Assembly (NCBI GenBank): GCA_017309275.1
Contig: JAFKLT010000039.1
Span: forward strand, 31,746 to 95,745
Reading direction: 5' to 3'
From: Sphingomonadales bacterium
GTDB lineage: Bacteria > Pseudomonadota > Alphaproteobacteria > Sphingomonadales > Sphingomonadaceae
Length of the DNA stretch: 64,000 nt
The position numbers and the translations under genes are program-made. Within the stretch, counting starts at the first letter, position 1, and each line of letters begins with the position of its first letter. Shown here one piece after another: positions 36,725 to 58,376 of the stretch. Below the pieces are notes generated by a model that was not told the origin of the DNA, did no database searches, and was given only the letters and a program-made list of their open reading frames with translations.

Positions 36725-36785
36725 CATGGGTGAATGTCGGCAGCGCGCGTAGCCTGCATCTGGTCCTCCTAAAAACGGGGGGCGC

Positions 36786-38386: not shown

Positions 38387-39487
38387 CTAGATCGCGGTCA
38401 GGGCAAAGAGCAGGGCGATGCCGAAACTGGTGAGCGTCGCTAGCGCAACCGGTACGGTCGCGCGCCATCCCATTTCCAGCAACAGGTCCAGCCGTGTGCG
38501 CATGGCGGTGGCAGTCACTGCCAGCAGCAACAGCGCCTTCGACCCCGACAGCGCCCATTCACGCGCAGCCTCCGGAACCGCGATGGCGCTGTTCAGCGTC
38601 ACGACGGCCAGAAACGCGACGATGAACCAGGGCAGCGCCAGGCGGCGCCAGAACCGGGTATTCGTGCCGCTTTCGGGCCGCAAGATCAGGCTGACCAGCG
38701 CCACGACGGGGGCGAGCAGGGCGACGCGGGCCAGCTTGACGATCGTCGCGCTCGCGCCCGCCGTGTCGGAAAAGGCGTAGCCGCCGCCGATCGCCTGCGC
38801 GACGTCATGGATCGACGCGCCGATCAGGAATCCCGCCTGGGCATCGTTCAGCCCGAATTCGCCCGCGATCAGCGGGTAAATCGTCATCGCCAGCGCGCTG
38901 GCCAGCGAAATGCCGACCAGAGTCAGGGCGAATTGCGCCTGCGATAGCCGTTGGCGGCCGATTACCCCATACAGCGCCAGCGCCGCGCTCGCGCCGCAGA
39001 TCGCGGTCGCGCCGCCCGCCAGCAGCCCGGCATAGGGCGACTGCCCGGCCAGGCGCGCGCCCAGCAAGCCCGCGCCCATCGTCAGCGCCATCACGACGAT
39101 CAACGCGCCAAATGGTATGGGGCCGAGCACGGCGATCTGCGCGAACGTCACCTGCAGCCCCAGCACGACGATCCCGATCCTCAGAAAGGTTCTCGATGCG
39201 AAATCCAGTCCGCGATGCGTCGCTTCGTTGGCCGAGATGAAATTGAGCGACAGGCCCACCAGCAACCCCAGCAGGATGATCGGAAAGCCGTAATGATCGG
39301 ACAGCCACGCCGCCGCCGCAGAGCCCGCGGCGCAGGCCGCGAGCCCGGGGAACAGGCGATGACCTTGCTCCTCAGTGGGCCGGGTATCCGCCAGATGCAA
39401 CTCGCCGAACAGGTCGCCGCCGCTGGGCAGGTCGTTCCAATGCGCGTGGCGCATCGACGTTCCAATATTTCTGTCCAACGCTGTCAT
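38387..39487 (-). CDS. YeiH-family putative sulfate/sulfite exporter
   Basis: 366 residues with about ten membrane helices. FPIILLGLLVGLSLNFISANEATHRGLDFASRTFLRIGIVVLGLQVTFAQIAVLGP, AGGATAICGASAALALYGVIGR and IGASIHDVAQAIGGGYAFSD are the UPF0324/YeiH signatures. The family is annotated as a putative sulfate exporter; direct proof of substrate is limited. Standing at the edge of the sulfoquinovose-type island, it could remove sulfite or sulfate freed by the monooxygenase (inference). It is divergent from the LacI gene. Confidence 0.85.
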   Translation of the reverse strand: MTALDRNIGTSMRHAHWNDLPSGGDLFGELHLADTRPTEEQGHRLFPGLAACAAGSAAAAWLSDHYGFPIILLGLLVGLSLNFISANEATHRGLDFASRTFLRIGIVVLGLQVTFAQIAVLGPIPFGALIVVMALTMGAGLLGARLAGQSPYAGLLAGGATAICGASAALALYGVIGRQRLSQAQFALTLVGISLASALAMTIYPLIAGEFGLNDAQAGFLIGASIHDVAQAIGGGYAFSDTAGASATIVKLARVALLAPVVALVSLILRPESGTNTRFWRRLALPWFIVAFLAVVTLNSAIAVPEAAREWALSGSKALLLLAVTATAMRTRLDLLLEMGWRATVPVALATLTSFGIALLFALTAI

Positions 39488-39635
39488 AAGGCGCTGCCAT
39501 AATCGCGGGCGGGGCAGGGACGCAAGGCTTCTCTTGCGAAAGGGCGGCGGGAACGCCTAAGCAGACAGCGTTGGCCAGCAGGGGAAGCAGAGCCGTGAAG
39601 CCGAATTGCCTCGCCGGGAAGGAGCGCGTGCGCGC

Positions 39636-40640
39636 ATGACCCGGGCGACGATCAAGGATGTCTCGCGCGTCGCGGGCGTGTCGATCAAGACCGTGTCGCG
39701 CGTGCTGAACAAGGAACGCTATGTCAGCGACGAGATGCGGCAAAAGGTCGAGGAAGCGGTCGCGCGCCTCAACTACCACCCCAGCCTTGCCGCGCGCACG
39801 CTGGCGGGCAAGCGATCGTTCCAGATCGGGCTGATCCACGACAACCCCAGCCCCTATTATATCTTCAATATGCAGGCCGGCGTCGGGCAGCGTTGCCGCG
39901 AGGCGAATTTCCGCATGATCATTCAGCCGTGCGACGTGAACTCCCCGGGGCTGATCGACGACATCGGCGCGCTGATCGACCAGGCGCAACTCGACGGCAT
40001 CATCATGACGCCGCCGGTGACCGATGTCGGCACCGCGCTTGCCGAGCTGTTTCGCCGCAAGATTCCGGTCGTGCGTGTCCAGCCGGGGACCGATTTGACT
40101 GCTACCTCAGCGGTTTACATCGACAACGTCCAGGCGGCCGACGACATGACCGCCTATCTGATATCGCTCGGTCATCGCCGCATCGGGCTGGTGACCGGTC
40201 ACGCGAATTATTTCGCCAGCGGGCAGCGCCTGACCGGCTATCGGCAGGCGCTCCAGCGCGCGGGCATCGGCTTCGACGCCTCGCTGGTCTTCCCGGGGCA
40301 GTTCGATTTCCAATCGGGTTCCGCCGCGGCCGAGGCGCTGCTCGCGCTCGACGATCCGCCGACGGCGATCTTCGCGAGCAGCGACGAAATGGCGGCGGGC
40401 GTGCTCGCGGCGGCGCACCGTATGGGCGTGTCGGTGCCCGACCAGCTCTCGGTCGCCGGTTTCGACGACACCGACCTGGCACAGGTTGTCTGGCCTTCGC
40501 TGACCACCGTGCGCCAGCCGATCCGCGATCTCGGCTATGCCGCCGCCGACCTGTTGCTCGAATTCGGCGAGCGGATCGAACGCAGGCAGTTGCCGCACGA
40601 ACTGATCGTACGCGGATCGACGGCTGCTCCGAAAAATTAG
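39636..40640 (+). CDS. LacI-family regulator of the sulfoquinovose-type island
   Basis: About 334 residues from ATG 39636 (AAGGAG upstream; the TTG at 39606 adds ten unlikely residues). HTH MTRATIKDVSRVAGVSIKTVSRVLNKERYVSDEMRQKVEEAVARLNYHPSLAARTLAGKRSFQIGLI and sensor domain with AIFASSDEMAAGVLAAAHRMGVSVPDQLSVAGFDDTDLAQVVWPSLTTVRQPI. Three similar palindromes at 40754, 42107 and 47525 are its probable operators. The inducer could be sulfoquinovose or a derivative. Confidence 0.88.
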   Translation: MTRATIKDVSRVAGVSIKTVSRVLNKERYVSDEMRQKVEEAVARLNYHPSLAARTLAGKRSFQIGLIHDNPSPYYIFNMQAGVGQRCREANFRMIIQPCDVNSPGLIDDIGALIDQAQLDGIIMTPPVTDVGTALAELFRRKIPVVRVQPGTDLTATSAVYIDNVQAADDMTAYLISLGHRRIGLVTGHANYFASGQRLTGYRQALQRAGIGFDASLVFPGQFDFQSGSAAAEALLALDDPPTAIFASSDEMAAGVLAAAHRMGVSVPDQLSVAGFDDTDLAQVVWPSLTTVRQPIRDLGYAAADLLLEFGERIERRQLPHELIVRGSTAAPKN

Positions 40641-40666
40641 GGTCATTTCGAGGATCTGAAGGCGAC

Positions 40667-40707
40667 GCGGCAATCCAGCGTTGCGCCGATCGCTCTGGAT
40701 TGCGCCG
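40667..40707. repeat. intergenic inverted repeat (CAATCCAG type)
   Basis: GCGGCAATCCAGCG and CGCTCTGGATTGCGCCGC form a hairpin right after the LacI gene. It shares the CAATCCAG/CTGGATTG core with the longer repeat at 48413-48501. Possible transcription terminator. Confidence 0.6.
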
Positions 40708-40753
40708 CTCCGCTCGCAAGGGCTACCGAAGAAAAGCCTTGTCCTTTCGAGTA

Positions 40754-40767
40754 TGACAACGTTATCT
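40754..40767. promoter_or_regulatory. LacI-type operator before the MFS gene
   Basis: TGACAACGTTATCT, an imperfect palindrome with AACGTT core, 36 bases before the GTG start. It belongs to the same set as the sites at 42107 and 47525. Confidence 0.6.
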
Positions 40768-40802
40768 CATCGACCAGACATAAGAGATTCGGGGAGAAGG
40801 CC

Positions 40803-42056
40803 GTGACGACAATCGCCGACAAGCGGCGCTGGCTGGTGGTGGGGCTCGTCTTCATCGCGATCGTCCTCAACTATGTCGATCGTCAGATTCTGGCGCTGCT
40901 CAAGCCGACGCTGCAGGCCGAATTCGACTGGACCGACCGCGATTACAGCCACATGGCCTCGGCCTTTCAGTTCGCCGCCGCGCTCGCGTTTCTCGGCACC
41001 GGCTGGTTCATCGACAAGGTCGGGTTGCGCTGGGGCTTCGCGATCGGCGTTGGCGTATGGAGCCTTGCCGGCATGGCGCACGCCTTCGCGACCACTGTCG
41101 CGGGTTTCGTGACCTCGCGTGCGGTCCTCGGCGCCGCCGAATCGATCGGCACCCCCGCGGCCGTGAAGACCGCGGCCACCTATTTCAACGCGAAGGAGCG
41201 CAGCTTCGTGCTCGGCCTCGGCGGCATCGCGCCGAATGTCGGCGCGATCCTGACGCCCCTGCTGATCCCGTTGATGGCGATGATGTGGGGGTGGCAGGCG
41301 ACGTTCCTGATCGCGGGCGGCCTCGGCCTCGTCTGGGTCGTCGTCTGGCTGTGGGTGCGTATCCCTGAACAGCCGAACGCCGCGCGCGACGCCGCCGCGC
41401 CCAGGATCGCCTGGGCCAGCCTGCTGCGCGATCGCCGCCAATGGGCGATCATCCTGGGTAAGGCGCTGACCGACCAGGTCTGGTGGTTCCTGCTCTTCTT
41501 CATGCCCGACCTGTTCCACCGCGTCTTCGGGTTGACGCAGGGGACGCTCGGCCTTCCGGTCGCTTTCGTCTATTTCATGGCCGCTCTCGGCGGTATTACC
41601 GGCGGTTTTCTGCCGTCGTATCTCATGGGGCGCCGCGGCTGGACCGTGAATGCGGCGCGAAAGACGACGATGTTGATCTATGCGCTGCTCATCCTGCCGG
41701 TGCCGCTGCTCGTCGGCGTCGACAGCGCTTGGGTCGCCGCGATGATTCTGGGCCTGGCGCTCTTTGCGCATCAGGGCTTTTCGACCAACATCTTCGGGCT
41801 GACGACCGACGTCTTTCCGGCGCGGATCGTGGGCTCGGCGATCGGCATCGGCGCCTTTGCCGGCAATCTGTCGGGGATGGCGATGATCGAGTTCGCGGGC
41901 TGGTCGCTCGACACCGGCCGCGGGTATCTGCCGATGATGCTCGTCTGCGCCTTCACCTATCTCGCCGCGCTTGCCGCGATCCACCTCATCCTGCCCCGCA
42001 TCGTCGCGGTCGATGAGGAGGAGGATGGCGAGGCTGGGCCGATATTGGCCCACTGA
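40803..42056 (+). CDS. MFS transporter, hexuronate/anion:cation symporter type
   Basis: 417 residues, 12 membrane helices. RRWLVVGLVFIAIVLNYVDRQILALLKPTLQAEFDWTDRDYSHMASAFQFAAALAFLGTGWFIDKVGLRWGF is characteristic of the ExuT/ACS branch that carries hexuronates and other acidic sugars. GTG 40803 is preceded by GGGGAGAAGG. First gene after the LacI regulator and followed by the reductase and monooxygenase genes, so it may import sulfoquinovose, an acidic sugar (inference). Confidence 0.88.
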   Translation: MTTIADKRRWLVVGLVFIAIVLNYVDRQILALLKPTLQAEFDWTDRDYSHMASAFQFAAALAFLGTGWFIDKVGLRWGFAIGVGVWSLAGMAHAFATTVAGFVTSRAVLGAAESIGTPAAVKTAATYFNAKERSFVLGLGGIAPNVGAILTPLLIPLMAMMWGWQATFLIAGGLGLVWVVVWLWVRIPEQPNAARDAAAPRIAWASLLRDRRQWAIILGKALTDQVWWFLLFFMPDLFHRVFGLTQGTLGLPVAFVYFMAALGGITGGFLPSYLMGRRGWTVNAARKTTMLIYALLILPVPLLVGVDSAWVAAMILGLALFAHQGFSTNIFGLTTDVFPARIVGSAIGIGAFAGNLSGMAMIEFAGWSLDTGRGYLPMMLVCAFTYLAALAAIHLILPRIVAVDEEEDGEAGPILAH

Positions 42057-42106
42057 TCCAACCGCATACGAAAAGCCGCTTCACTCGTCCCGTATTATGG
42101 AGTATA

Positions 42107-42120
42107 TGACAGCGATGTCA
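42107..42120. promoter_or_regulatory. LacI-type operator at the reductase start
   Basis: TGACAGCGATGTCA, a palindrome apart from one central pair. It overlaps the probable start codon of the reductase gene, so bound repressor would block initiation or early elongation. Confidence 0.65.
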
Positions 42121-43017
42121 GATTTTCTTCCCGCTCCCGCCAATGTGACCATCGCCGGTCATGAAGTTCCGCCCATCGCCTGGGGCATGTGGCGCTTCGC
42201 CGGCGTCGATGTCGCCACGGCGCGCGCGCGGGTCGACGCCGCGTTCGAGGCGGGTGTCACGCTGTTCGATACCGCCGACATCTATGGCTGCGACACGCCC
42301 GGTGGTTTCGGTTCGGCCGAGGCGCTGCTCGGCGACGTCTTTGCGGAGGCGCCGGGGCTGCGCGACCGGATGGTGCTCGCGACCAAGGGCGGCATCGTCC
42401 TGGGCGTGCCTTATGACAGCAGCGCCGCCTATCTGACCTCGGCGATTGATATCTCGCTGAAGCGCCTGCGCACCGACCATGTCGAACTGTGGCAGATCCA
42501 CCGTCCCGACCTGCTGACCCATCCGCAGGAGATTGCGCGGACGCTGGAGGAGGCGCACCGCGCTGGCAAGATCGGGGCGATCGGCGTGTCGAACTTCACG
42601 CCCGCGCAGACCGCGGCGCTCGCCAAATTTCTGCCCGTTCCGGTGGTCAGCCACCAGAGCGAATTTTCGCCGCTTCACCTCAGCCCGCTTTTCGACGGCA
42701 TCTTCGATCAGTCGATGGCGGAGGGCATGAGCTTCCTCGCCTGGTCGCCGCTCGGCGGCGGCCGGCTCGGCGATCCGGCCGACGAGCGCACGCGCGCAGT
42801 CGCCGGACTGCTCGACGCGAAGGCGGCCGAATATGGCGTCTCGCGCGCCGCCGCAACCTATAGCTGGGTGATGGCGCATCCCGCGCGCCCGGTCCCGATC
42901 GTCGGCACGCAGAATGTCGACAGGATCAAGGAAATTCCGCAGGCCTTCGCCCCGCGCTGGACGCGCGCCGAATGGTACGCGGTGCTGCAAACATCGATGG
43001 GGGAGAATCTGCCATGA
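42115..43017 (+). CDS. aldo/keto reductase, 6-oxo-glucose reductase (SmoB-like) candidate
   Basis: 300 residues from ATG 42115; ATG 42106 or 42097 are alternatives. (beta/alpha)8 AKR motifs: LFDTADIYG (Asp, Tyr), VLATKGG (Lys), VELWQIHRPD (His), GKIGAIGVSNF and the NADPH-binding tail VPIVGTQNVDRIKE. In the described sulfo-SMO pathway an AKR reduces 6-dehydroglucose, made by the monooxygenase, to glucose. Here the monooxygenase start overlaps this stop as ATGA, which is the main reason for the assignment. Confidence 0.78.
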   Translation: MSDFLPAPANVTIAGHEVPPIAWGMWRFAGVDVATARARVDAAFEAGVTLFDTADIYGCDTPGGFGSAEALLGDVFAEAPGLRDRMVLATKGGIVLGVPYDSSAAYLTSAIDISLKRLRTDHVELWQIHRPDLLTHPQEIARTLEEAHRAGKIGAIGVSNFTPAQTAALAKFLPVPVVSHQSEFSPLHLSPLFDGIFDQSMAEGMSFLAWSPLGGGRLGDPADERTRAVAGLLDAKAAEYGVSRAAATYSWVMAHPARPVPIVGTQNVDRIKEIPQAFAPRWTRAEWYAVLQTSMGENLP

Positions 43018-44081
43018 CCGACCGCACGTGCGAAGTCAGCTGGTTTTCGGCGCTCTGCGACGACGACTATGAATTTCTGGGGGTTCCCGATCCGATGCTC
43101 AAGTCGAGCTGGGAGCATTGCCGCGACATCGTGATGCAGGCCGACAGCCTGGGCTTCGACAACATCCTGCTGCCCTCGGGCTATGCGCTCGGCATCGACA
43201 CCACCGCCTTTGCCGCGGCGATCGCGACGATGGTGAAGCGCATCCGCCTGTTGATGGCGGTGCGCATCGGCGAAAGCTGGCCGCCGCAGCTCGCGCGCCA
43301 GATCGCGACGATCGATCGCATCCTGGGCGGCCGCCTGACGGTCAACATCATCTCGTCCGACATGCCGGGCGAGGCGATGGACTCCGAACCGCGCTATCGT
43401 CGCACGGTCGAGGCGATGCACATATTGAAGACGCTGCTCAACGGCGAGGCGCTCGACCATGACGGCGAGTTCTGGAAGCTGCAGCTCGACCCCCCGCGTA
43501 TCGGAATGGTGTCGGGCAAGGCGCCGCCACTCTATTTCGGCGGCCTCTCGCCCGCCGCGCGCGACGCCGCGGCAAAGGGCTGCGACGTCTTCCTGATGTG
43601 GCCCGACCGCGAGGAGGTGGTGAGGGAGATCATCGCTGACATGACCGCCCGCGCCGCCGCCTATGGCCGCACGCTCAAATTCGGCTACCGAGCGCACATG
43701 GTCGTCCGCGACACCGAGGACGAGGCCCGGGCCGCCGCCGATCGCCTGCTGTCCAAGCTCGACGCCGACAAGGGCGCCGCGATCAAGGCCAAGTCGCTAG
43801 ACTCGCAGTCGTTCGGGGTGAACGCGCAGGTTGCGCTGCGCGAAGCGGCGTCCGACGACGGTTATGTCGAGGATAATCTCTGGACCGGCGTCGGCCGCGC
43901 CCGCTCGGGCTGCGGCGCCGCGATCGTCGGCGACCCCGATCAGGTGCTGGCAAAGCTGAACCGCTATCAGGACATGGGCATCGAGGCGTTCATCCTCTCC
44001 GGCTACCCGCACGCTGCCGAAGCCGACCTCTTCGCCCGCCACGTGCTGCCGAAGATGACGCACGGCCCGCTTGAGCTCTAA
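43014..44081 (+). CDS. SsuD-like FMNH2-dependent sulfonate monooxygenase, SmoC-like candidate
   Basis: 355 residues, luciferase-like fold. In my numbering, R226 and H228 (FGYRAHMVV), R297 (GVGRARSG) and Y331 (LSGYPH) coincide with the active-site positions I recall for E. coli alkanesulfonate monooxygenase SsuD. The SsuD Cys54 and N-terminal His are not kept, which fits a different sulfonate. With the AKR, MFS and a GH31 sulfoquinovosidase, sulfoquinovose oxidation to 6-dehydroglucose plus sulfite is the best-supported role. It needs a flavin reductase; none is adjacent, but one is encoded at 62089-62697. Confidence 0.8.
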   Translation: MTDRTCEVSWFSALCDDDYEFLGVPDPMLKSSWEHCRDIVMQADSLGFDNILLPSGYALGIDTTAFAAAIATMVKRIRLLMAVRIGESWPPQLARQIATIDRILGGRLTVNIISSDMPGEAMDSEPRYRRTVEAMHILKTLLNGEALDHDGEFWKLQLDPPRIGMVSGKAPPLYFGGLSPAARDAAAKGCDVFLMWPDREEVVREIIADMTARAAAYGRTLKFGYRAHMVVRDTEDEARAAADRLLSKLDADKGAAIKAKSLDSQSFGVNAQVALREAASDDGYVEDNLWTGVGRARSGCGAAIVGDPDQVLAKLNRYQDMGIEAFILSGYPHAAEADLFARHVLPKMTHGPLEL

Positions 44082-44106
44082 ATCGTCGACGCAATAAGCC
44101 TGTTTT

Positions 44107-44186
44107 GTCACCCCGGACTTGATCCGGGGCCACGAAAGCCAGCGCGGCCCTCCACGTTATGAATCCCGGATCAAGTCCGGGATGAC
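44107..44186. repeat. intergenic palindromic element (CCCGGACTTGATCCGGG type)
   Basis: GTCACCCCGGACTTGATCC and TCCCGGATCAAGTCCGGGA form long inverted arms with a ~32-base centre. Elements of this wording recur at 47394 and 58828; they are typical dispersed intergenic palindromes of alphaproteobacteria. Confidence 0.8.
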
Positions 44187-44336
44187 GATGGTTTGTGGAG
44201 AGATACCCCGCCTCCACGGTGAGACGTAGGAGAGGGAGGCGGGGCGAGCGCCCTTAAGCAGGGCACGGCTTGCGGGATGATGAACAAAGCTCGGCAGCGA
44301 TAGCGAATTGTGCGGAACAGCACTAAATGCGTCGCA

Positions 44337-44855
44337 ATGCTGTCGCTCGATGATTCCCGCTGGACAACATTGACCCATGCTTATGGGAGCGCTGCCGATA
44401 TTCCGGATTTGATCCGCAGCCTCGCCCAAGCCCCAGCGCCCCAGGATGATGCTAGGAGCGAGCCTTGGTTCAGCATCTGGTCCAGCCTCTGTCATCAAGA
44501 TGATGTCTTCGACGCGTCCTATGCGGCGGTTCCACATATCGTCGATATCGCCTGCCGATCAGACGGCCCGGTCGATTTCAGCTTTTTTCAGCTTCCGGCT
44601 TCAGTCGAGGTGGCGCGGAGAAATGGCCGGGGCCCTGCGCTGCCCGCCGACCTTGCCGAAGCCTACGACCATTCTCTCGAAAAACTGGCGGACTGCATCG
44701 CGCGCCATCGGCATGAAGCATGGGACGAAGCGACGCTTCTCTCCGTTCTCGCGGCGCAGGCGGTCGCAAAGGGACATCATCGGATTGCCGAGGCGATCAT
44801 GAACCTCGACGATGATTTGATCGAGCGACTGATCTTGCTCGATTTCGATGCTTGA
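44337..44855 (+). CDS. conserved hypothetical protein
   Basis: About 172 residues from ATG 44337 (GTG 44310 possible). LSLDDSRWTTLTHAYGSAADIPDLIRSLAQ...EPWFSIWSSLCHQDDVFDASYAAVPHIVDIACR resembles a family of small uncharacterised proteins scattered among bacteria; I know no function. No signal or membrane segment. Base composition is less GC-rich than its neighbours and it is bounded upstream by a palindromic element, so it may be an insertion into the island. Converges on the alcohol dehydrogenase gene. Confidence 0.7.
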   Translation: MLSLDDSRWTTLTHAYGSAADIPDLIRSLAQAPAPQDDARSEPWFSIWSSLCHQDDVFDASYAAVPHIVDIACRSDGPVDFSFFQLPASVEVARRNGRGPALPADLAEAYDHSLEKLADCIARHRHEAWDEATLLSVLAAQAVAKGHHRIAEAIMNLDDDLIERLILLDFDA

Positions 44856-44867
44856 CCGGCGTTCGAA

Positions 44868-46034
44868 CTACCCCGCCCAAACCGCCGCATAAAGCTTCGC
44901 CATTTCCTCCGCATCGGGCACGCGCGGGTTGTTCGCGGGGGAGCCCGATGCCGCCGCCTGCGCGCACATCGTCGGGACCAGCGCGTCCCAGCGCGCCGCT
45001 TCGATGCCCCACGCCGCCGGTCCGGGCACGTCCAGCTCGCGGTTCAGCGCCGCCAGTTCGTCGAGCAACCGCGCCACCGCCGACTGGTCGCCCTCGGCCT
45101 GGTCGGCGACCCCCATCGCCCTTGAACAATCGGCATAGCGGTGCAGCGCAGCGGGTGCCGACCAGGCGGTCACCGCGGGCAGCAGCATCGCGTTAGACAG
45201 GCCGTGCGGGACATGGAAATGCGCGCCGATCGGCCGGCTCATCCCGTGCACCAGCGCGACCGAGCTGTTCGAGAAGGCGATCCCCGCCTGCGTCGCGCCC
45301 AGCATCATCGCCTCGCGCGCCGCCGCATCCATCGGGTCGGCGCACACGCGGCGCAGGTTCGGCGCGATCGCGCGCATCGCGAGCAGCGCCATGCCGTCGC
45401 TGAATGCGTTGGCGCGCTTGGAAACATAGGCTTCGATCGCGTGGGTCAGCGAATCGATCCCGGTATCGGCGGTCAGCCGCACCGGCTTGGTAAAGGTCAG
45501 CTCATAGTCGACGAGCGCCGCGACCGGCAGATAGGCAAGCCCCGGACAAAGCATCTTTTCGTCGGTCGTCTCGTCGGTGATGATCGTGAAGCGCGTCGCC
45601 TCCGACCCCGTGCCCGCGGTCGTGGGGATCGCGATGATCGGCAGGCCTGGGGCATCCTGCACGTGCGGCGCCTTGTAATCGGCCATCGCCCCGCCATGCA
45701 GACCCAGCAGCGCGATCGCCTTTGCGCTGTCGAGCGGGCTGCCGCCTCCGAAGCCGACGACGCAGTCGTGATCGCCTTCCAGCAAATAGGCGACCCCGGC
45801 GTCGATCGACGCGACGGTCGGATCGGGCACCGTGTCCGCGAACACCCGCGCCGCGATCCCCGCCGCCGCCAGCCCGTCGGTCAGCTCGGTCACGCGCCCG
45901 CTGTTCACCAGCCAGCCGTCGGTGACGATCAGCGGCCGCGACAGGCCCAGCGTCGCCAGCACCTCGGGCAGCGCTTTCGACGCACCGCCGCCGATGCGGA
46001 GGATGCGGGGCAGGGCAATGCTGGCGATACTCAA
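44868..46034 (-). CDS. iron-containing alcohol dehydrogenase
   Basis: 388 residues of the group III Fe-dependent family. GFGGGSPLDSAKAIALL (NAD loop), IPTTAGTGSEATRF, DTGIDSLTHAIEAYVS (metal His), HGMSRPIGAHFHVPHGLSNAMLLP (metal His pair). Start overlaps the MFS stop as ATGA, so it is the second gene of that operon. The substrate is not evident; a C3 alcohol/aldehyde such as glycerol-like or lactaldehyde-like compounds fits the context. Confidence 0.88.
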   Translation of the reverse strand: MSIASIALPRILRIGGGASKALPEVLATLGLSRPLIVTDGWLVNSGRVTELTDGLAAAGIAARVFADTVPDPTVASIDAGVAYLLEGDHDCVVGFGGGSPLDSAKAIALLGLHGGAMADYKAPHVQDAPGLPIIAIPTTAGTGSEATRFTIITDETTDEKMLCPGLAYLPVAALVDYELTFTKPVRLTADTGIDSLTHAIEAYVSKRANAFSDGMALLAMRAIAPNLRRVCADPMDAAAREAMMLGATQAGIAFSNSSVALVHGMSRPIGAHFHVPHGLSNAMLLPAVTAWSAPAALHRYADCSRAMGVADQAEGDQSAVARLLDELAALNRELDVPGPAAWGIEAARWDALVPTMCAQAAASGSPANNPRVPDAEEMAKLYAAVWAG

Positions 46035-47365: not shown

Positions 47366-47393
47366 CACATCCTCTCGACTATGTCTTTTCTTC

Positions 47394-47474
47394 GTCACCC
47401 CGGATTTGATCCGGGGTCCCGCCTTGTCCGTTGAGGCAATAAGCGGGATGCCGGGTCACCTCCGGCATGGCGAG
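47394..47474. repeat. intergenic palindromic element, right arm decayed
   Basis: GTCACCCCGGATTTGATCC is intact; the opposite arm survives as GGGATGCCGGGTCACCTCC with mismatches. Same family as 44107-44186. Confidence 0.7.
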
Positions 47475-47524
47475 GGTTTTCCTGTTTGTTCGGACGCCGA
47501 TTGACTCCCTCTTCTGGCACGATA

Positions 47525-47538
47525 TGACAGCGTTGTCT
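47525..47538. promoter_or_regulatory. LacI-type operator before the isomerase gene
   Basis: TGACAGCGTTGTCT, an imperfect palindrome of the same type as the site at 42107-42120. It is 14 bases before the TTG start and 160 before the divergent MFS start, so it may control both. Confidence 0.62.
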
Positions 47539-47551
47539 GAAAGGAAACACC

Positions 47552-48391: not shown

Positions 48392-48412
48392 CGAAGGCAC
48401 GAAGCCCATAAG

Positions 48413-48501
48413 AGCCGCGTCATGGCGAGCGAATCGACGCAATCCAGAGTGGCGTAAACCGCCCTGGATTGCGTCGATTCGCTCGCAATCACGCGGCTTT
48501 T
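48413..48501. repeat. long perfect-arm hairpin between convergent genes
   Basis: Arms of about 35 bases (core GCGAATCGACGCAATCCAG and CTGGATTGCGTCGATTCGC, extended by AGCCGCGT and ACGCGGCT) around a 16-base loop, ending in CTTTT on the plus strand. It sits between the convergent isomerase and kinase genes and probably works as a bidirectional terminator. Its core recurs at 40667-40707. Confidence 0.8.
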
Positions 48502-48507
48502 GGTCTT

Positions 48508-51322: not shown

Positions 51323-51323
51323 A

Positions 51324-52883
51324 TCACTCTCCCAAAAGCCTGCGGCTCTCATCGTTGATCCGGCGGCAATGCGCGATCTCGGCCGCCGTCATGGCGTCAT
51401 CCCAGCCCAGCAGCGCGCCCATCGCCTCGGCGGCGGGGGCGAGCGCGGCCAGACCGGCGCCATGGTCGAACCAGGCGCGCGCGCTGCGCCGCACCCAATA
51501 ATCCTCCAGCGTCGCCGCGCCCTCGTGCGTTACCGCGCGCGCGGCCTCGGCGGCGATATCGCCGCCCGCAATCACGATCTCGTTCGCCTCGTCGCCGTAC
51601 AGCCCCGCCAGCCGCTCGGCGGCGCGCGGGTCGAGGCGGCTCAGGCTATCGCCCAGGCCGCGCGATCCGCCGGGCAGCGGCGCTTCGGCGGTCGAGCAGG
51701 GCAGGGCGCGCTGTCCCAGCCGTTCGACCACCAGGTCGACGACGCGTTCGGCCATCGCGCGATAGGCGCTCAGCTTGCCGCCGGCGATCGAGATCAGGCC
51801 GCTTGGCGCGGTCCATATTTCGTCCTTGCGCGACACCTCGTTCGCCTTTTTTCCCGGCTGCGCGATCAGCGGGCGCACGCCCGACCACAGCGACACGATC
51901 TCGGCATCGCGGATCGGCTCGATGCGCAGTGCCGCCTCGGTCGCGCGGAGCAGATAGTCGATGTCCTCGCGCGTCGGCGCGGGCCAGTAATCGGCACCGT
52001 CGTGAAACACGTCGGTCGTGCCGATATAGGTAAATGCCCCGCGCGGCACCGCAAAGATGCTGCGCTTGTCCGGCGCGCGGATGATGATCGTCGCGTCGAT
52101 CGGCAGCCGTTCGCGCGGCAGCACCAGGTGGATGCCGCGGCTCAGCGACAGGCGCGTATCGCCTTCGCCCGCCTCAAGCCCGCGCACCTGGTCGACCCAC
52201 GCGCCCGCGGCGTTCACCACCAGCGTCGCCTTGATCCGCGCGCCCAGCCCGTCGTCCAGCGTCGAGGTCGTGACCAGCCCGTCGCCCGTCAGTGCCGACG
52301 CCGCCGCATGGTTGATCACCACCGCGCCCGCCGCCTGCGCGCTGCGCACATTCGCCAGCACCAGCCGCGCGTCGTCGGTCAGGAATTCGGGATAGAGCAC
52401 CGCACCGTTCAGCCGGTCGGTGCGCATCAACGGCTCGCGCCGCTGCAGCTCGGCCAGGCCGATCACCTCGTGCCGCTCCGCCTCCGGCACGCCGCCCAGC
52501 TTTTCAAAGGTCCACAGCCCGGTGCGCAGCTTCGCCGTCATCGCCATGTTCGTCGTGGGGATCAGAAAGGGCGACAGCCGCGTCAGATGGGGCGCTATCC
52601 GCCGCACGACCTGCCGCTCCGACGCTGCCTCCTTGACCAGCGCGATGTCGCCTTGGCCGAGGTAGCGCAGCCCGCCGTGGATCATCTTTGAACTGCGGCT
52701 GCTCGTCCCGCAGGCATAGTCGCGCGCCTCGACCAGCGCGACCGACAGCCCGCGCATGGCGGCGTCGCGCGCGATCCCGGCGCCGGTGATCCCGCCGCCG
52801 ATGACCGCCAGGTCGAACCGGCGCGCCTCGAGTTCGGCAAAGACCCGGCGCCGCGCGCGGGTGTCGAGGGAGGAACTGCTCAT
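51324..52883 (-). CDS. glpD: FAD-dependent glycerol-3-phosphate dehydrogenase GlpD
   Basis: 519 residues. AVIGGGITGAGIARDAAMRGLSVALVEARDYACGTSSRSSKMIHGGLRYL is the GlpD Rossmann/FAD signature; IIIRAPDKRSIFAVPRGAFTYIGTTD and LWSGVRPLI continue the pattern, with the C-terminal helical domain carrying DYWVRRSARAWFD. Peripheral membrane enzyme that oxidises glycerol-3-phosphate to dihydroxyacetone phosphate. First gene of the operon and divergent from a LysR gene. Confidence 0.92.
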   Translation of the reverse strand: MSSSSLDTRARRRVFAELEARRFDLAVIGGGITGAGIARDAAMRGLSVALVEARDYACGTSSRSSKMIHGGLRYLGQGDIALVKEAASERQVVRRIAPHLTRLSPFLIPTTNMAMTAKLRTGLWTFEKLGGVPEAERHEVIGLAELQRREPLMRTDRLNGAVLYPEFLTDDARLVLANVRSAQAAGAVVINHAAASALTGDGLVTTSTLDDGLGARIKATLVVNAAGAWVDQVRGLEAGEGDTRLSLSRGIHLVLPRERLPIDATIIIRAPDKRSIFAVPRGAFTYIGTTDVFHDGADYWPAPTREDIDYLLRATEAALRIEPIRDAEIVSLWSGVRPLIAQPGKKANEVSRKDEIWTAPSGLISIAGGKLSAYRAMAERVVDLVVERLGQRALPCSTAEAPLPGGSRGLGDSLSRLDPRAAERLAGLYGDEANEIVIAGGDIAAEAARAVTHEGAATLEDYWVRRSARAWFDHGAGLAALAPAAEAMGALLGWDDAMTAAEIAHCRRINDESRRLLGE

Positions 52884-52936
52884 CGGCTTACGCTATGAGA
52901 ATGACAGGGGGATTGGTATTGCATAATGGGAATGAT

Positions 52937-53866
52937 ATGGTGCGGACCGTGAACCTCCGCCGCCTTCGCCATTTCGATACGCTCTATCGCCTGGGCAGCT
53001 ATGCGCGCGCCGCCGACGAGCTTGGCCTCACCCAGTCGGCGCTCACCCGCTCGATCCAGAAGCTGGAGGGGGAGCTTGGCACGACGCTGTTCGACCGCAC
53101 GACCCATTATGTCCGGCCGACAGGCGACGCCGACCGCCTGATCCGCTCGGCGCGCGACGTCATCGCCGCGTCGGCGAACCTCGAGCAGGAGGCGCGCGGC
53201 CTCGGCCATCCCAGCAGCGGCACCGTCGCGGTGGGCAGCGGACCGTACCCGCTGCAACCCTTGCTGACGCGCGCGATCGCCCGTTTCGCCGCCGTGCATC
53301 CCGGTGTGCGCGTCACCGTCACCGGCGGGCCGTCGGAGCAGTTGCTCGAAACATTGGTCGACCGCCGCCTCGACCTGGTTGTCTGCAACCGCGCGAAATT
53401 CGCCGCGTCGGGCCATGCCGACGAGGTGCTGTGCATCCCGCTGCCGCCGGAGCCGCTGATGCTCGTCTGTGCGCCCGATCATCCGCTTGCGAAGGGGCAG
53501 GGCGACAGCGCCGATTTCCCCTGGGCCTTGCCGCGACCCGCGCCGGGCAGCAACCTGCCCCGCGCGCTCCGCGCCCGCTTCGCCGCGGGCCAGTTTCCCG
53601 ATTATGAGCTGGATTCGACCGCGGCGTGCCTCGACATGGCGAAAAGCGGGCAGGCGATTACCGTCGTCCCGCGCGCGCTTGCGGTCGACAGCGGTCTTCA
53701 CATGATCGCGCTTCCCGCGACCGAGGTCACGCGCGACGCGATCCACCTCCTCCGCAACCGCAGCCGCAGCGCGCTGGTCGCCGCGTTCGTCGAGGTGCTG
53801 CGCGCCGTTGCTCAGGCGGAGGGGATCCCGGCAAACAGCGCCGCGTCCGCCGATCCCTCGCGATAA
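52937..53866 (+). CDS. LysR-family regulator
   Basis: About 309 residues from ATG 52937 (an upstream in-frame start at 52895 would intrude on the divergent promoter). HTH VNLRRLRHFDTLYRLGSYARAADELGLTQSALTRSIQKLEGELGTTLFDRTTHYVRPT; ligand domain with GTVAVGSGPYPLQPLLTRAIARFAAVHPGVRVTVTGG. Divergent from glpD, which it probably regulates. Its 3' end overlaps the convergent GH31 gene by 55 bases. Confidence 0.88.
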   Translation: MVRTVNLRRLRHFDTLYRLGSYARAADELGLTQSALTRSIQKLEGELGTTLFDRTTHYVRPTGDADRLIRSARDVIAASANLEQEARGLGHPSSGTVAVGSGPYPLQPLLTRAIARFAAVHPGVRVTVTGGPSEQLLETLVDRRLDLVVCNRAKFAASGHADEVLCIPLPPEPLMLVCAPDHPLAKGQGDSADFPWALPRPAPGSNLPRALRARFAAGQFPDYELDSTAACLDMAKSGQAITVVPRALAVDSGLHMIALPATEVTRDAIHLLRNRSRSALVAAFVEVLRAVAQAEGIPANSAASADPSR

Positions 53867-55821
53867 AAGACCGGCGGCTGCCCGAACGGCGCCGCGACCG
53901 TCACGTCGCTGCCGCCGACATAGGCGCGGCCCGACCAGACATGGACCCACGTCGCCCCGGCGGGCAGATAGGTGGTCCACTCGCGCTTCGCCGCCGCGAT
54001 CACCGGTGCGACCAGCAGGTCGGGGCCCAACAGATAGGCGGTCTGGATCGCATAGGTTTCGGGATCGTCCTCGAAATGCAGGAACAGCGGCCGCTGCACC
54101 GGCAGTCCGCTTTCCGACGCCTCGCGCGACAACCGCCGGATGTGAGGTGCCAGATGCGCATAGATCCGCGTCATCTTCGCAAAATGCGCCAGCAGCTCGG
54201 GGTCGTCGTCATACTGCACATTCTGCCGCGGCCGGTTCCCCTCATGCGTGCGGATCATCGCGGTAAAGGCCGACATCTCGGCCCAGCGCATCGCCAGTTC
54301 GGCATCACGCGTCGTGTCGAACAGGCTGGTATAGCCGCCGCAGTCGCTGTGATGATGCGCGTTGCCCAGCATCCCCGCCGACAGCGCGGCGCAGATCACC
54401 GTACCGATCCCGTCGTGCCGGCTGAAATCGACCGACTGGTCGCCCGCCCACAGCATCGGGCAATGGCCCTGTACCCCGGCGGCGCCCGATCGCATGAACA
54501 CCATCATCTCGCCGGTCTGGCCGCGCCCAGCGATGCCTCGCGCGTTGACCTCGCCCCACAGCGCGGGCCAGCGGTTGTGCGCCGTCATCCCGCTCTCGCC
54601 ATTGGCCAGCCGCACGTCGACTGGCAGATATTCGCCAAAGTCGGCCATCCAGCCCGAAAGGCCGAAATCGATCATCTTCTCGCCGATGATCGTGTCGGCG
54701 AACCAGGCAGCGGCGGCCGGGTTGGTAAAGTCGACATGCCCGCAATCGAACTCACCGAAATCAATGATATAGGGCTCGTCCCTGTCGGGGCGCATGACCA
54801 TGAAACCCTGCGCCGCCGCTTCGGCATAGAGCGGCCCGTCGACCGCCAGATAGGGGTTAACATAGCCCAGAAAACGGATGTCTCGCGCCTTCATCTCGGC
54901 GATCCGCGCGGGCAGGTCGGGATAGCGATCGGCATTCCACTGCCAGTCCCAGAACAGCCGGTTCCCGAAGCTGGTGATGCGCAGCCCCACCCAATCCTCG
55001 CACCACAGACCCGACACCGCGACCCCGGCATCTTCATAGGCCTTCAGCCGCGCAAAGCTGTTGTCGCCGTCCTTCAACCCGATGACCGCGCCTTTCAGCA
55101 GCCATTCGGGCAGCGGCGGCTGGCGTCCGAAGCGTTCGGATAGCGCCGATACCAGCTCGGCGAAGCGCGGCCGCGCCCATAGTTCGATCCGCGCGGGAAT
55201 CTCCCACACCTCGACCTCATGATGGCCGGCGGCGCGGAAATCGAACGCGGCATAGGCAAAGCTGTCGACATGCAGCGCATAGCGGCGCGAACTGATATAG
55301 GTCGGCTGCGGATAATTGGTGTGGGCATAGCTGCCGCCGCCGCCCTTGCGGTGCGCCTCGACCTGCTGGAACAATGGCGAGGCGGGGTCGCGCCCGACGC
55401 CGGGCTCGCTCGACCACAGCGAGAAATGCCGGCTTTTCAGGTCGAAATAGGAAAATTGCTCGCCGCCGCCCCACACATGCTCGTCGGCCGTCGCGTCTAT
55501 GCGCAGCCACAGCCGGTTCAGCGTTGGATCGAGCGCGGTCAGCGCGACGACCGCATTGTCGCCGTCGCCCGAAACCGTCGCTTCCAGCAGCCACGGCGCG
55601 CCCGGCGCCTCGGCCATGCGGACGACGTTGCCCGCGACCTCGACATGCATCAGCCCGCGGCGCTCGATCACGTCCTGCGATACGTCGAAATGGCCCAGTT
55701 TCGCATGGACATGCGGCTCGCCGCGCCCGACGAAGAAACAGGGCGCGGCCGCGCTGTGCGTCAGGATCGTCTGCCCGCCCAGGTAAAGGGCAAAACCGGT
55801 GTCGCGCGCCTCAAGCGCCAT
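53812..55821 (-). CDS. GH31 sulfoquinovosidase (YihQ/SmoI family)
   Basis: About 669 residues from ATG 55821. The sequence follows E. coli YihQ: LWCEDWVGLRITSFGNRLFWDWQWN, YVNPYLAVDGPLYAEAAAQGFMV, GWMADFGEYLPVDV (nucleophile Asp394), MLWAGDQSVDFS (acid/base Asp461), HHHSDCGGYTSLF and RTHEGNRPRQN. Lys250, Glu275, Arg288, Trp291 and Tyr497 match the K-E-R-W-Y set that recognises the sulfonate in Agrobacterium-type sulfoquinovosidases. It releases sulfoquinovose from sulfoquinovosyl glycerol or sulfolipid. No signal peptide is seen. It lies 179 bases downstream of a TonB receptor on the same strand. Confidence 0.92.
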   Translation of the reverse strand: MALEARDTGFALYLGGQTILTHSAAAPCFFVGRGEPHVHAKLGHFDVSQDVIERRGLMHVEVAGNVVRMAEAPGAPWLLEATVSGDGDNAVVALTALDPTLNRLWLRIDATADEHVWGGGEQFSYFDLKSRHFSLWSSEPGVGRDPASPLFQQVEAHRKGGGGSYAHTNYPQPTYISSRRYALHVDSFAYAAFDFRAAGHHEVEVWEIPARIELWARPRFAELVSALSERFGRQPPLPEWLLKGAVIGLKDGDNSFARLKAYEDAGVAVSGLWCEDWVGLRITSFGNRLFWDWQWNADRYPDLPARIAEMKARDIRFLGYVNPYLAVDGPLYAEAAAQGFMVMRPDRDEPYIIDFGEFDCGHVDFTNPAAAAWFADTIIGEKMIDFGLSGWMADFGEYLPVDVRLANGESGMTAHNRWPALWGEVNARGIAGRGQTGEMMVFMRSGAAGVQGHCPMLWAGDQSVDFSRHDGIGTVICAALSAGMLGNAHHHSDCGGYTSLFDTTRDAELAMRWAEMSAFTAMIRTHEGNRPRQNVQYDDDPELLAHFAKMTRIYAHLAPHIRRLSREASESGLPVQRPLFLHFEDDPETYAIQTAYLLGPDLLVAPVIAAAKREWTTYLPAGATWVHVWSGRAYVGGSDVTVAAPFGQPPVFYREGSADAALFAGIPSA

Positions 55822-55851
55822 GGGGAGCATCCTTTCGCACATCTTTTACGA

Positions 55852-55963
55852 TCCTCCCCGCCGTAACGCGATGGGGAGGGGCCATCCGCGGGATGGTGGA
55901 GGGGCCGCGACGTCGCGTCAAAGCCCCTCCGTCGGCGTTTCACGCCATATTCTCACGCCATCT
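55852..55963. repeat. repeated TCCTCCCCG / GGGGAGG intergenic element
   Basis: Contains CCTCCCCGCC, GATGGGGAGGGGCC and GGATGGTGGAGGGGCCGCG. Very similar wording occurs at 58916-58953 (CCTCCCCGTCGCGTGGCG then GGGGTGGAGGGGCC). A second dispersed palindromic family distinct from the CCCGGA type. Confidence 0.6.
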
Positions 55964-55991
55964 CCTCCCCATGCCGTGCGGCACGGGGAGG
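55964..55991 (-). terminator. candidate terminator hairpin after the TonB receptor gene
   Basis: CCTCCCC and GGGGAGG pair around an inner TGCC/GGCA stem, forming a strong 28-base hairpin nine bases past the receptor stop. It would separate the receptor from the sulfoquinovosidase gene, at least partly. No clear U-run. Confidence 0.55.
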
Positions 55992-55999
55992 ATATTCGA

Positions 56000-58318
56000 T
56001 CAGAAGTTCACGCGGCCCGTGACGCCGAAATAGCGTTCGGCATCGCGCGGGGTGATCTGGCGCATGAAGCTGGTGCCGTTCGGGATCCGCTGGATCACGA
56101 ACTGCTTGTCGGTCAGGTTCTTGACGATGAACGACAGGCTGTACTTGTCGTCCGACGTGCTGACGCGCAGCCCGGCATCCCAGATGGCATAGGCGTTCTG
56201 GAACGCATTGGGGTTCTGGTTGATGTCGAAATTGGTCTTGCTCTGATAGACGAGCGAGCTGTTCAGATCGACGTTGAAACCCTCGATATTCAGCGGCAGG
56301 CGCCAATCCATCGTCACCGTGCCCTTGTACTTGGGAGCAAAGGGCAGGGGCTTGCCGTTGATCGCGTCGGCACAGGTCACCGCCGCGCCTGCGGGACAGA
56401 TGAACTTGTTGATGTGCGCGTCGGTATAGTTGAAGCCGCCCGAGAGCGAGAAGTCATCGGTGATCGCCGCGTTGAAATCCATCTCGATGCCGCGCGTCGA
56501 CACCGAACCGGCGTTGGTCAGGCGAGTGACGACCTGGCCTGCGACGATATCCAGGAAGTTCGCCTGGTAATTGTCGTACTTGGCGTAAAAGGTTGCCAGG
56601 TTCAGCGTCAGGCGACGGTCAAACAGCCGCATCTTCAGACCCGCTTCATAGGCGTTCGACTTTTCGGGGTCGATGCGGCCGGTGTCGCGCGCCAGCATGT
56701 TGAAGAAGATGTTGAGCGCCGGACCCTTGTAGCCGCGGGTATAGGTGGCATAGGCGACAATATCGTCGCTCAGGTCGTATTGCAGGCCCGCATTGCCCGA
56801 CCAGCCATTGTCCTTGATCGACCCGGTGGAGGCGAACGCCGGGTTGACGCCGGTAAAGGCGGTCAGCGACGTCGATCGGCGCGCAAAGTCATAGCTGACC
56901 TTGTCCTCGGTATAACGCAGGCCCAGGATGCCGCGGAAGGCGTCGGTAAAGTTGAACGTGCCCTGGCCGAACGCCGAATAGCTGGTCAGCTTCGTCGTAA
57001 AGTCCGCATTGCCTTCGTTGGTGGTATAGGTCGACGATCCCTGGGCGCAGGGGGTCAGCCCGCCCACGGTGGGCAGCGTCGACGCGGTGCAGGCCGTGAC
57101 CGTGCGGTTGAAGAAATCGACTTCCTTCGTGCGATAGTAATAAAGCCCCGCAACATATTCGAAGAACTGCGGATTTGCCGATGCCAGGCGCAGTTCCTGC
57201 GTGAACTGATCGAATTTCAGGTCGCCGCGATCGTGCGACCGGACGTCGCCCGCCGCGGTGCCGGTGTTGACATATTTCGGCGAATCCGACCGGAAATCGC
57301 CGTCGCGCTGCTGGAAATTATACCAGTGACGATAGGCGGTGATCGACGTCAGCGTCGCGCCGCCCAGGTCCAGGTCGAACTGACCCGACACGCCGCTGTT
57401 CTTGTCCTTGGTATAAGGATCCAGGTCGTTGTCGATATTCTTGTTCTTGCCGTCCAGCACCAGCGGAGCCAGGCTGGGGATGAACACAGCATTGTTGAAC
57501 GCGGAGGAAAAGACCGTGCCGATGCTGTCGGCATAGCCATTGTCGCTGTTCTTCGAATAATCGGCGATCAGCGTGATCTTCAGCGCATCGGTCGGCTCGG
57601 CGATCAGCTTGCCGCGCACGCCCCAATGTTCGTACCCGTTGACCTTGTGGTTGTTGAACACGTTGCGGCCGTTGCCGTCGAACTGCGACCAGAATCCGGT
57701 GACCGACGCGCGGACGCTGTCGGACAGCGGTCCGCCGACGCTGCCGCGGATGCGATATTCATTGCCCTGATACCACGCCGCGTCGACATAGCCGCCCAGC
57801 TCGTTGCCGGGTTCGCGCGATATGATGTTGATCACGCCCGCGCTGGCGTTCTTGCCGAACAGGCTGCCCTGCGGACCGCGCAGCACTTCGATCCGTTCGA
57901 CGTCCAGAAAGTCCGACGTCTGCTGGCCGGTACGGGCATAGACCACGCCGTCGATGACGGTGGACACCGACGGTTCGACGCCCGACGAAAAGCTGATCGT
58001 GCCGACGCCGCGGATCGACAGCGCCGAATCCTTGTTGGTGTTGCCCTTGCGAAAGGTCAGGGTGGGGACGCGCTGGAAAAGCTGCTCGGCCGAATTGACG
58101 TTCGAACGCTCCAACTGGTCGCCGGACACGACCGAAATGGCGACGGGAACATCCTGCAAATTCTGCTCGCGCTTTTGCGCGGTGACGATGATGTCGGTGG
58201 TGGCGAAGGGCGCATCGGCCTCGGCGGCGCTCCCTTGGGCGTGGGCCGGGACGGCGGCCAGCGCCATTCCCAATGCCGATGTGACCGCGAGATACGCTTT
58301 GGCGTTCGACGAAACCAT
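56000..58318 (-). CDS. TonB-dependent outer-membrane receptor of the sulfoquinovose-type island
   Basis: About 772 residues from ATG 58318, with GGGAGGA seven bases upstream. Signal peptide (MVSSNAKAYLAVTSALGMALAAVPAHA), plug with TDIIVTAQKREQNLQDVPVAISVVSGDQLERSNVNSAEQLFQRVPTLTFRKG and LDVERIEVLRGPQGSLFGKNASAGVINIISREPG, barrel ending FGVTGRVNF with terminal Phe. Placed directly upstream of the sulfoquinovosidase; probable uptake of sulfoquinovosyl glycerol or sulfoquinovose across the outer membrane (inference). Confidence 0.93.
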   Translation of the reverse strand: MVSSNAKAYLAVTSALGMALAAVPAHAQGSAAEADAPFATTDIIVTAQKREQNLQDVPVAISVVSGDQLERSNVNSAEQLFQRVPTLTFRKGNTNKDSALSIRGVGTISFSSGVEPSVSTVIDGVVYARTGQQTSDFLDVERIEVLRGPQGSLFGKNASAGVINIISREPGNELGGYVDAAWYQGNEYRIRGSVGGPLSDSVRASVTGFWSQFDGNGRNVFNNHKVNGYEHWGVRGKLIAEPTDALKITLIADYSKNSDNGYADSIGTVFSSAFNNAVFIPSLAPLVLDGKNKNIDNDLDPYTKDKNSGVSGQFDLDLGGATLTSITAYRHWYNFQQRDGDFRSDSPKYVNTGTAAGDVRSHDRGDLKFDQFTQELRLASANPQFFEYVAGLYYYRTKEVDFFNRTVTACTASTLPTVGGLTPCAQGSSTYTTNEGNADFTTKLTSYSAFGQGTFNFTDAFRGILGLRYTEDKVSYDFARRSTSLTAFTGVNPAFASTGSIKDNGWSGNAGLQYDLSDDIVAYATYTRGYKGPALNIFFNMLARDTGRIDPEKSNAYEAGLKMRLFDRRLTLNLATFYAKYDNYQANFLDIVAGQVVTRLTNAGSVSTRGIEMDFNAAITDDFSLSGGFNYTDAHINKFICPAGAAVTCADAINGKPLPFAPKYKGTVTMDWRLPLNIEGFNVDLNSSLVYQSKTNFDINQNPNAFQNAYAIWDAGLRVSTSDDKYSLSFIVKNLTDKQFVIQRIPNGTSFMRQITPRDAERYFGVTGRVNF

Positions 58319-58355
58319 CTTCAAATCCTCCCTTGCATGCGCTGCCGGATCATTA

Positions 58356-58376
58356 TGTCAATCTATTTGATTGACA
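58356..58376. promoter_or_regulatory. inverted repeat and promoter region of the TonB receptor gene
   Basis: TGTCAATC and GATTGACA are perfect 8-base arms around TATTT, 38 bases before the receptor start. On the minus strand TTGTCA followed after 16 bases by TAATGA gives a plausible -35/-10 pair overlapping the repeat. It does not match the LacI-type sites of the island, so another regulator may act here. Confidence 0.55.

Follow-up and report, generated by a model that had tools for sequence, protein, structure and literature searches.

A predicted sulfoquinovose desulfonation island of a sphingomonad and its attached GlpD-like, alkyl-DHAP-synthase-like and FGGY kinase genes

What is the purpose of a gene island that joins predicted genes for the desulfonation of sulfoquinovose (SQ), the sulfur-bearing sugar of plant sulfolipid, to a block reminiscent of glycerol and ether-lipid metabolism? 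The question is raised by a contig of a Sphingomonadales bacterium (assembly GCA_017309275.1, JAFKLT010000039.1), of which 64,000 nucleotides (positions 31,746 to 95,745, forward strand) were analysed; this whole stretch is called the window, and its own numbering is used throughout. The island, at 38387-58324, is composed of the SQ desulfonation genes and of a block encoding a GlpD-like dehydrogenase, an FAD enzyme resembling alkyl-dihydroxyacetone phosphate (alkyl-DHAP) synthase (ADPS) and an FGGY kinase, together with genes for a LysR regulator, a TIM-barrel protein, a second MFS transporter (MFS2) and an iron-containing alcohol dehydrogenase (Fe-ADH). An earlier note on this DNA had read the island as an SQ pathway of the sulfo-SMO type with extra genes, and profile scans of the open reading frames (ORFs) showed its gene list to be correct.

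The SQ core is very probably the known sulfo-ASMO/sulfo-SMO pathway in a sphingomonad version, the island adding a member to a pathway already in the literature. The proposed sulfo-SMO core was borne out, since a GH31 sulfoquinovosidase (SQase), an SQ-type monooxygenase and an aldo-keto reductase (AKR) coupled to it by ATGA were all found. The SQase gene (53812-55842, minus strand) reaches 851 bits against NCBIfam PRK10426, a model named alpha-glucosidase with a cut-off of 553, and the enzyme is assigned to the YihQ type because its best solved relatives, 5ohy and 5ohs, are YihQ structures. Its residues K257, E282, R295, W298 and Y504 form the K-E-R-W-Y set, the sulfonate-site motif of sulfoquinovosidases named in the earlier note; alignment confirmed the set in the window protein and found it, with both catalytic aspartates (D401 and D468), in 14 fetched relatives as well (15/15 rows). 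The gene of the sulfoquinovose monooxygenase (SMO), of the SquD/SmoC type, lies at 43014-44081 on the plus strand. Its scores against 7olf and 7oh2, presumably SMO structures (their PDB names are 'methanesulfonate sulfonatase' and 'alkanesulfonate monooxygenase'), are 390 and 386 bits, compared with 209 against SsuD, and this difference is the basis of the SQ assignment. The residues R226, H228, R297 and Y331 of SsuD (positions of chain 1m41, the E. coli enzyme) are indeed matched by R, H, R and Y in the window SMO, as had been claimed, but they are no mark of an SQ enzyme because ordinary SsuD has them too. The AKR (PF00248), of the SquF/SmoB type by context, is encoded on the plus strand from about 42106 to 43017, with 42097 or 42115 as other possible starts, and its stop overlaps the SMO start as ATGA at 43014.

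From published homologues we infer that the island desulfonates SQ and forms glucose. SQ glycosides such as SQ-glycerol would enter through a TonB-dependent receptor (56000-58324, minus strand, with an ATG at 58318) and MFS1 (40803-42056, plus strand; PF07690, galactonate/ExuT-like, TIGR00893 below cut-off), a putative importer of SQ or SQ-glycerol. The SQase would free SQ, from which the FMNH2-dependent monooxygenase would remove sulfite to yield 6-dehydroglucose, using reduced flavin from a reductase elsewhere in the genome, and the AKR would convert 6-dehydroglucose to glucose. A YeiH-family putative sulfate exporter (38387-39487, minus strand; PF03601, TIGR00698 below cut-off) may, as a guess, export sulfite or sulfate, and the LysR-GlpD-ADPS-FGGY unit would probably deliver a glycerol portion of SQ lipids to central metabolism. 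We only infer the role of this unit, the substrate roles of MFS1, YeiH, MFS2, the TIM barrel and Fe-ADH, and repression by LacI. No flavin reductase was detected among the island ORFs scanned against profile families; three flavin reductase genes of PF01613, the family searched, are present in the genome, all on other contigs. According to two reviews, sulfo-ASMO has been described in Agrobacterium and in the sphingomonad N. aromaticivorans, and the cluster of the latter is without SsuE, other flavin reductases being presumed to serve (PMC12890257, PMC9594981). As published clusters can lack a flavin reductase, such a gene does not define the sulfo-ASMO/sulfo-SMO family.

The SQ genes were counted in the family, which was sampled with 298 genomes, the own genome included. 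Near-full-length SMO genes of at least 69% identity occur in 77 of them (one, G134, with an internal TGA), two more (G007 and G176) have only a split or partial gene, and the next near-full matches drop to 36-37% identity. A GH31 SQase, counted at E <= 1e-100, is present in 48 genomes, of which 41 also hold SMO (G007, with its split gene, among them); the seven without it are G037, G048, G132, G179, G201, G222 and G236. Of 16 fetched SMO loci, three of them short stretches, 14 have an AKR, 14 a TonB receptor, 14 an MFS1, 12 a LacI (at least 50% identity), 10 a GH31 and 8 a YeiH; since TonB and MFS1 are large families and their matches reach down to 38% identity, part of these matches may be to different members. 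From these counts, a layout with TonB receptor, MFS and LacI is usual in the family, so that the three genes are present as claimed but do not set this island apart. In five family genomes without a close SMO, the GH31 SQase adjoins an AKR and a TauD-family dioxygenase, forming candidate sulfo-SDO clusters (L053:7719-11829, L054:7750-11630, L055:7692-11554, L072:8977-12840 and L073:6901-10750). Their dioxygenases share 61-67% identity with the L055 copy (the Pfam scan covered L053-L055 only). Two papers place the sulfo-SDO pathway in Gammaproteobacteria. Our literature search found no paper joining sulfoquinovose and Sphingopyxis.

The attached unit is formed by three genes that overlap on the minus strand. 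The FAD enzyme (49919-51352) has ADPS enzymes as its first solved relatives (2uuu, E 2.9e-54; 4bby, 3.7e-50), followed by the D-lactate-type enzyme 3pm9 (6.5e-30), and by sequence is nearest to alkyl-DHAP synthase. ADPS enzymes also rank first by Foldseek E-value for a structure model of the protein (pLDDT 76, nine sequences). D-lactate dehydrogenases (LDHD) and ADPS enzymes superpose on this model with query TM values of 0.78-0.81 and 0.74-0.83, respectively, and target-normalised values are higher for LDHD (0.81-0.84) than for ADPS (0.66-0.74); because LDHD enzymes fit the model well too, the fold would not by itself decide between the two. Annotation as a GlcD/lactate dehydrogenase was considered and rejected: GlcD (TIGR00387) is the best NCBIfam name, with 164 bits for a cut-off of 568, and the protein has HHH where 3pm9 has EHG. 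In the alignment, the catalytic residues R352, Y508 and R447 of ADPS (Dictyostelium numbers) correspond to R267, Y394 and R338 of the window enzyme, a mapping that uses an offset of three inferred from the residue numbers of the alignment; the F and H of the mammalian mutants Tyr578Phe and Arg419His fall on two of these positions. R267, Y394 and the HHH triplet (H431-H433) are kept in all 80 relatives, the best 80 of 98 from a scan of named genomes, and R338 is Arg in the window and in 34 of the 80.

Of the two partners, the kinase (48508-49926) is nearest to the glycerol kinases GlpK and the dehydrogenase (51324-52883) to GlpD, both with scores below the curated cut-offs (332 bits against 590 for the kinase and TIGR01311). 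The kinase has QRA where three glycerol kinases have QRE, and Val where these have Phe after YGTGA. Arg83, Glu84, Trp103, Asp245 and Phe270 are glycerol contacts of GlpK. Among 48 aligned kinases of the unit (FGGY genes of at least 35% identity; lower ones, as in Halieaceae with 24-27%, were left out), every one retains Arg, Trp and Asp, whereas Glu is replaced by Ala, Ser or Thr in all 48 and Phe is lost in all 48, and the glycerol pocket is altered in this sense. A second, more canonical GlpK is encoded elsewhere in all five genomes examined; it exceeds the cut-off in four, the own copy scoring 560 bits against 590. The genes that the earlier note had listed as additions are present, but part of them form a conserved unit, in which the FAD enzyme is alkyl-DHAP-synthase-like.

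This unit is rare in the family and also occurs outside it. The FAD enzyme (E <= 1e-60) was found in only 4 of the 298 family genomes, never more than a few kb from the SQase, and in 8 of 385 genomes of the class, both counts including the own genome. Directly upstream of it lies GlpD (at least 45% identity) at 65 of the 80 loci and directly downstream FGGY (at least 35%) at 48; GH31 is present at 14, SMO at 11 and LysR at 25, all of these being lower bounds because many contigs are short. FGGY-like genes of lower identity (24-27%) are found downstream in part of the remaining loci. When the ORFs at 66 non-close loci were clustered, the same partners emerged, GlpD at 58, FGGY-like genes at 55 and LysR at 22; further clusters recur at up to 15 of the 66, evident antisense ORFs set aside. 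The named loci belong to Alphaproteobacteria, Halieaceae, Acidimicrobiales, Acidobacteriota and Myxococcota. Joint occurrence of the genes thus extends over different phyla, and the GlpD-ADPS-FGGY unit is undescribed: literature searches on alkyl-DHAP/alkylglycerone phosphate synthase with glycerol kinase, operon, catabolism and SQ-glycerol gave no such unit among the matches listed.

The linkage of the unit to the SQase was traced in relatives. Among 16 close sphingomonad loci (FAD enzyme at least 82% identical: L074-L087, L116 and L153), GH31 is present at 12; it is missing from L078, a 6-kb contig, from L083, and from L084 and L085, two Novosphingobium genomes with SQase and SMO elsewhere. 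Islands of the window type are found in Sphingopyxis strains (Sphingopyxis panaciterrae DSM 27164, L153, carries the island), Sphingomonas 67-36 (where MFS2 was not found in the island), S. colocasiae and Sphingobium boeckii (DSM 25079, L087). Novosphingobium MD-1 has the parts split between two sites about 240 kb apart on one contig, the first with LacI, MFS1, MFS2, TIM, FGGY, ADPS, GlpD and LysR, the second with GH31, an acyl-CoA ligase, TonB receptor, AKR and SMO. An SQase accompanied by GlpD and ADPS, with SMO absent at the locus, was seen in G201, AAP38, G470 and a Caulobacteraceae metagenome-assembled genome (MAG; L145). FGGY is also present at each of these loci except that of L145, whose genome has an SMO-like gene of only 38%; AAP38 has an SMO at 70% elsewhere. 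In relatives, SQase and TonB receptor flank a FadD-like acyl-CoA ligase (L039:2138-3784, L040:16082-17725, L038:5031-6644 and L065:15810-17438; 63-72% identity to the L038 copy) that has no match in the window. In a Niveispirillum MAG (L090:2128-11122) the unit adjoins a second GlpD/FGGY pair, 35/33% identical to that of the window, and MFS2 is present at 76%.

Regulation appears to be divided between two proteins. A LacI-family regulator (39606-40640, plus strand; PF00356 and PF13377) precedes MFS1, and a putative LacI operator, TGACAACGTTATC, lies at 40754-40766, 36 bp before that gene; a second, TGACAGCGTTGTC, is located at 47525-47537 in the divergent MFS2/TIM promoter, 14 bp before TIM, and a third operator-like palindrome with one mismatch overlaps the AKR start (42107-42120). 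The LacI-type consensus was drawn up after the sequence upstream of MFS1 had been read, and its 2 matches in 64 kb compare with an expectation of 0.01 that is too favourable, the pattern having been made after the sites were seen. In a scan of 27 chosen sources (L088, L090 and L145 left out), sites with at most three mismatches precede MFS1 at 14 of 16 unit-bearing loci and TIM at 15 of 17 (random windows, 48 of 3000); at SMO loci without the unit they precede MFS1 in 2 of 8. This distribution suggests that LacI may govern the MFS1-AKR-SMO operon and TIM/MFS2/ADH through a common operator, repressing the operon and the divergent promoter, and that the unit may be under the divergent LysR regulator (52895-53866, plus strand), which lies between GlpD and GH31 and had been overlooked. 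LacI control, as first proposed, has the backing of an operator-like palindrome for the SMO operon and none for the SQase/TonB/GlpD side, where no site was seen and half of the island contains a LysR gene. A strict palindrome scan of the intergenic stretches yielded two unlike palindromes (47397 and 58356) and no common operator; the looser consensus found one. The palindrome upstream of the TonB receptor, TGTCAATCTATTTGATTGACA at 58356-58376, is unlike the LacI-type sites.

Several observations weigh against this account of the island. Matches to alk_sulf_monoox (TIGR03565), TIGR00698, TIGR00893 and TIGR01311 all remain under their cut-offs. The window has no site with at most three mismatches upstream of TonB receptor, GH31, GlpD, LacI or YeiH, so that there is no support for LacI control on the SQase side. 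The operator is absent (six mismatches) in the unit carriers G201 (L038) and L065, with no LacI seen in either locus, and the operator-positive loci are not independent, being mostly close Sphingopyxis relatives. In the L083 MAG, which carries the unit, neither an SQase at E <= 1e-40 nor a close SMO was found. G201 (a single contig, 100% complete; L038:2651-15236) has an SQase with intact KERWY next to GlpD, ADPS, FGGY and TIM, and its genome gave a best SMO-like match of 32%, no TauD/SDO-like and no AKR match. With G201 and L083 carrying the unit and no close SMO, it is no mere appendage to the SMO pathway.

What, then, might the unit do? Kinase, C2 dehydrogenase and ADPS correspond to the steps of ether-lipid synthesis in reverse, which led us to propose, tentatively and as a rather unlikely reading, a catabolic unit for O-substituted glycerols that breaks the C-O bond by way of a flavin adduct. 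The kinase would act on a glycerol conjugate (SQ-glycerol, lyso-sulfolipid, or some other glyceryl ether or glycoside) and phosphorylate its free end, oxidation of the product at C2 by the GlpD-like enzyme would give R-O-DHAP, and the ADPS-like enzyme would run the ether-lipid reaction backwards, its flavin-N5 adduct expelling the substituent to leave ROH and DHAP. In an SQ island R could be SQ, or an acyl or alkyl remnant after SQase action. At least as likely as such conjugate cleavage, and possible without being probable, is the use of plain glycerol, the unit being a second glycerol-utilisation set that burns the glycerol released from SQ-glycerol by GH31, with the FAD enzyme as an incidental oxidase. 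Hydrolysis of SQ-glycerol does yield glycerol, the unit often adjoins the SQase, and GlpK and GlpD are the closest match for its kinase and dehydrogenase; against this stand the more canonical GlpK elsewhere in the five genomes, the loss of the glycerol-site Glu from every aligned kinase and the retention of the catalytic Arg, Tyr and HHH of ADPS in every relative of the FAD enzyme.

The occurrence of SQase and unit without SMO in some genomes raises the idea that the unit itself is a new SQ-degrading route. G201 fits it, as does G470 with its SQase, unit, TIM gene and best SMO-like match of 30%, though an AKR is present there at 56%; yet neither genome was searched for other sulfoglycolysis genes (sulfo-EMP/ED/TAL/TK), GH31 was found at only 14 of the 80 FAD enzyme loci, many on short contigs, and we hold such a route to be improbable. 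Slightly harder still to accept is an ether-lipid biosynthesis set like eukaryotic ADPS that stands in the island by chance: ADPS is the closest solved homologue by sequence and Foldseek E-value, but a kinase with an FAD dehydrogenase suggests the catabolic direction, the SQase neighbourhood recurs in several lineages, the neighbouring TIM/MFS2 genes and the SMO operon have a common operator-like site, and no acyltransferase family was met among the island ORFs scanned. That the monooxygenase acts on another sulfonate beside an unrelated GH31 is highly improbable in spite of catalytic residues common to SsuD, given its far better score to 7olf, the presence of SMO in most SQase genomes and the AKR adjoining it at 14 of 16 loci.

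Fe-ADH (44868-46034) and MFS2 (46031-47398), both on the minus strand, are assigned by family matches. The isomerase-like gene of the earlier note is present and is read here on the plus strand at 47552-48391; it encodes a xylose-isomerase-like TIM barrel with PF01261 below its cut-off, no solved relative was found by sequence search below E 0.13, and the best Foldseek match of its model is UlaE (TM 0.59). Minus-strand ORFs at 47456-48511 and 52880-53980, antisense to TIM and LysR, were rejected as genes as they match no Pfam or NCBIfam family. A 181-residue ORF without family match lies between SMO and Fe-ADH (44310-44855), and CCCCGGA...TCCGGGG inverted repeats between genes (44090-44200 and 47397-47417) resemble dispersed palindromic elements. 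The DNA ahead of the island (33356-38277) encodes a further TonB receptor, a protein with an MPAB/Lcp domain and a pair of convergent CRP/FNR-type regulators.

Of greater interest than the SQ core, itself one more member of a published pathway, is the attached unit, and an island with a conserved glycerol-type unit and common operator-like sites is a variant worth testing. A 2026 study lists Novosphingobium among 13C-SQ-labelled bacteria. If conjugate cleavage were true, it would be a new way of breaking glyceryl ether or glycoside bonds: SQ-glycerol or lipid remnants would be cut without glycosidase or oxygenase, elsewhere the unit would provide a general bacterial ether- or glycoside-cleaving route, and there would be a bearing on the turnover of sulfolipid, galactolipid and betaine-lipid headgroups. 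Two published abstracts call AGMO, an oxygenase, the only known alkylglycerol-breaking enzyme.

How does the island compare with known systems? Like the sulfo-ASMO system of N. aromaticivorans, a pathway reportedly attributable to Liu 2021, it has a YihQ-type SQase, a SquD monooxygenase, a SquF aldo-keto reductase and no SsuE in the cluster. With the Agrobacterium sulfo-SMO system (SmoA, SmoB, SmoC) it shares a GH31 SQase and, as predicted from sequence, equivalent SQ monooxygenase and reductase activities. Unlike Agrobacterium, it has MFS1 and a TonB receptor instead of the SQ-glycerol ABC importer, a replacement claimed earlier that agrees with the lack of any ABC family match among the ORFs scanned (33-62 kb of the window), and it has no local flavin reductase but a LacI regulator and the extra unit. 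The FAD enzyme resembles ADPS/AGPS (alkylglycerone phosphate synthase) in the equivalents of R352 and Y508, the HHH triplet, the best sequence match and the best Foldseek E-value, but it is shorter (477 residues against 584 and 658), lies beside a kinase and GlpD, and belongs to a group in which the R447 equivalent is Arg in 34 of 80 relatives. Kinase and dehydrogenase, finally, are like GlpK and GlpD in overall family, and the kinase keeps the equivalents of Arg83, Trp103 and Asp245; they differ in scores below the curated cut-offs and, for the kinase, in the loss of the Glu84 and Phe270 equivalents.

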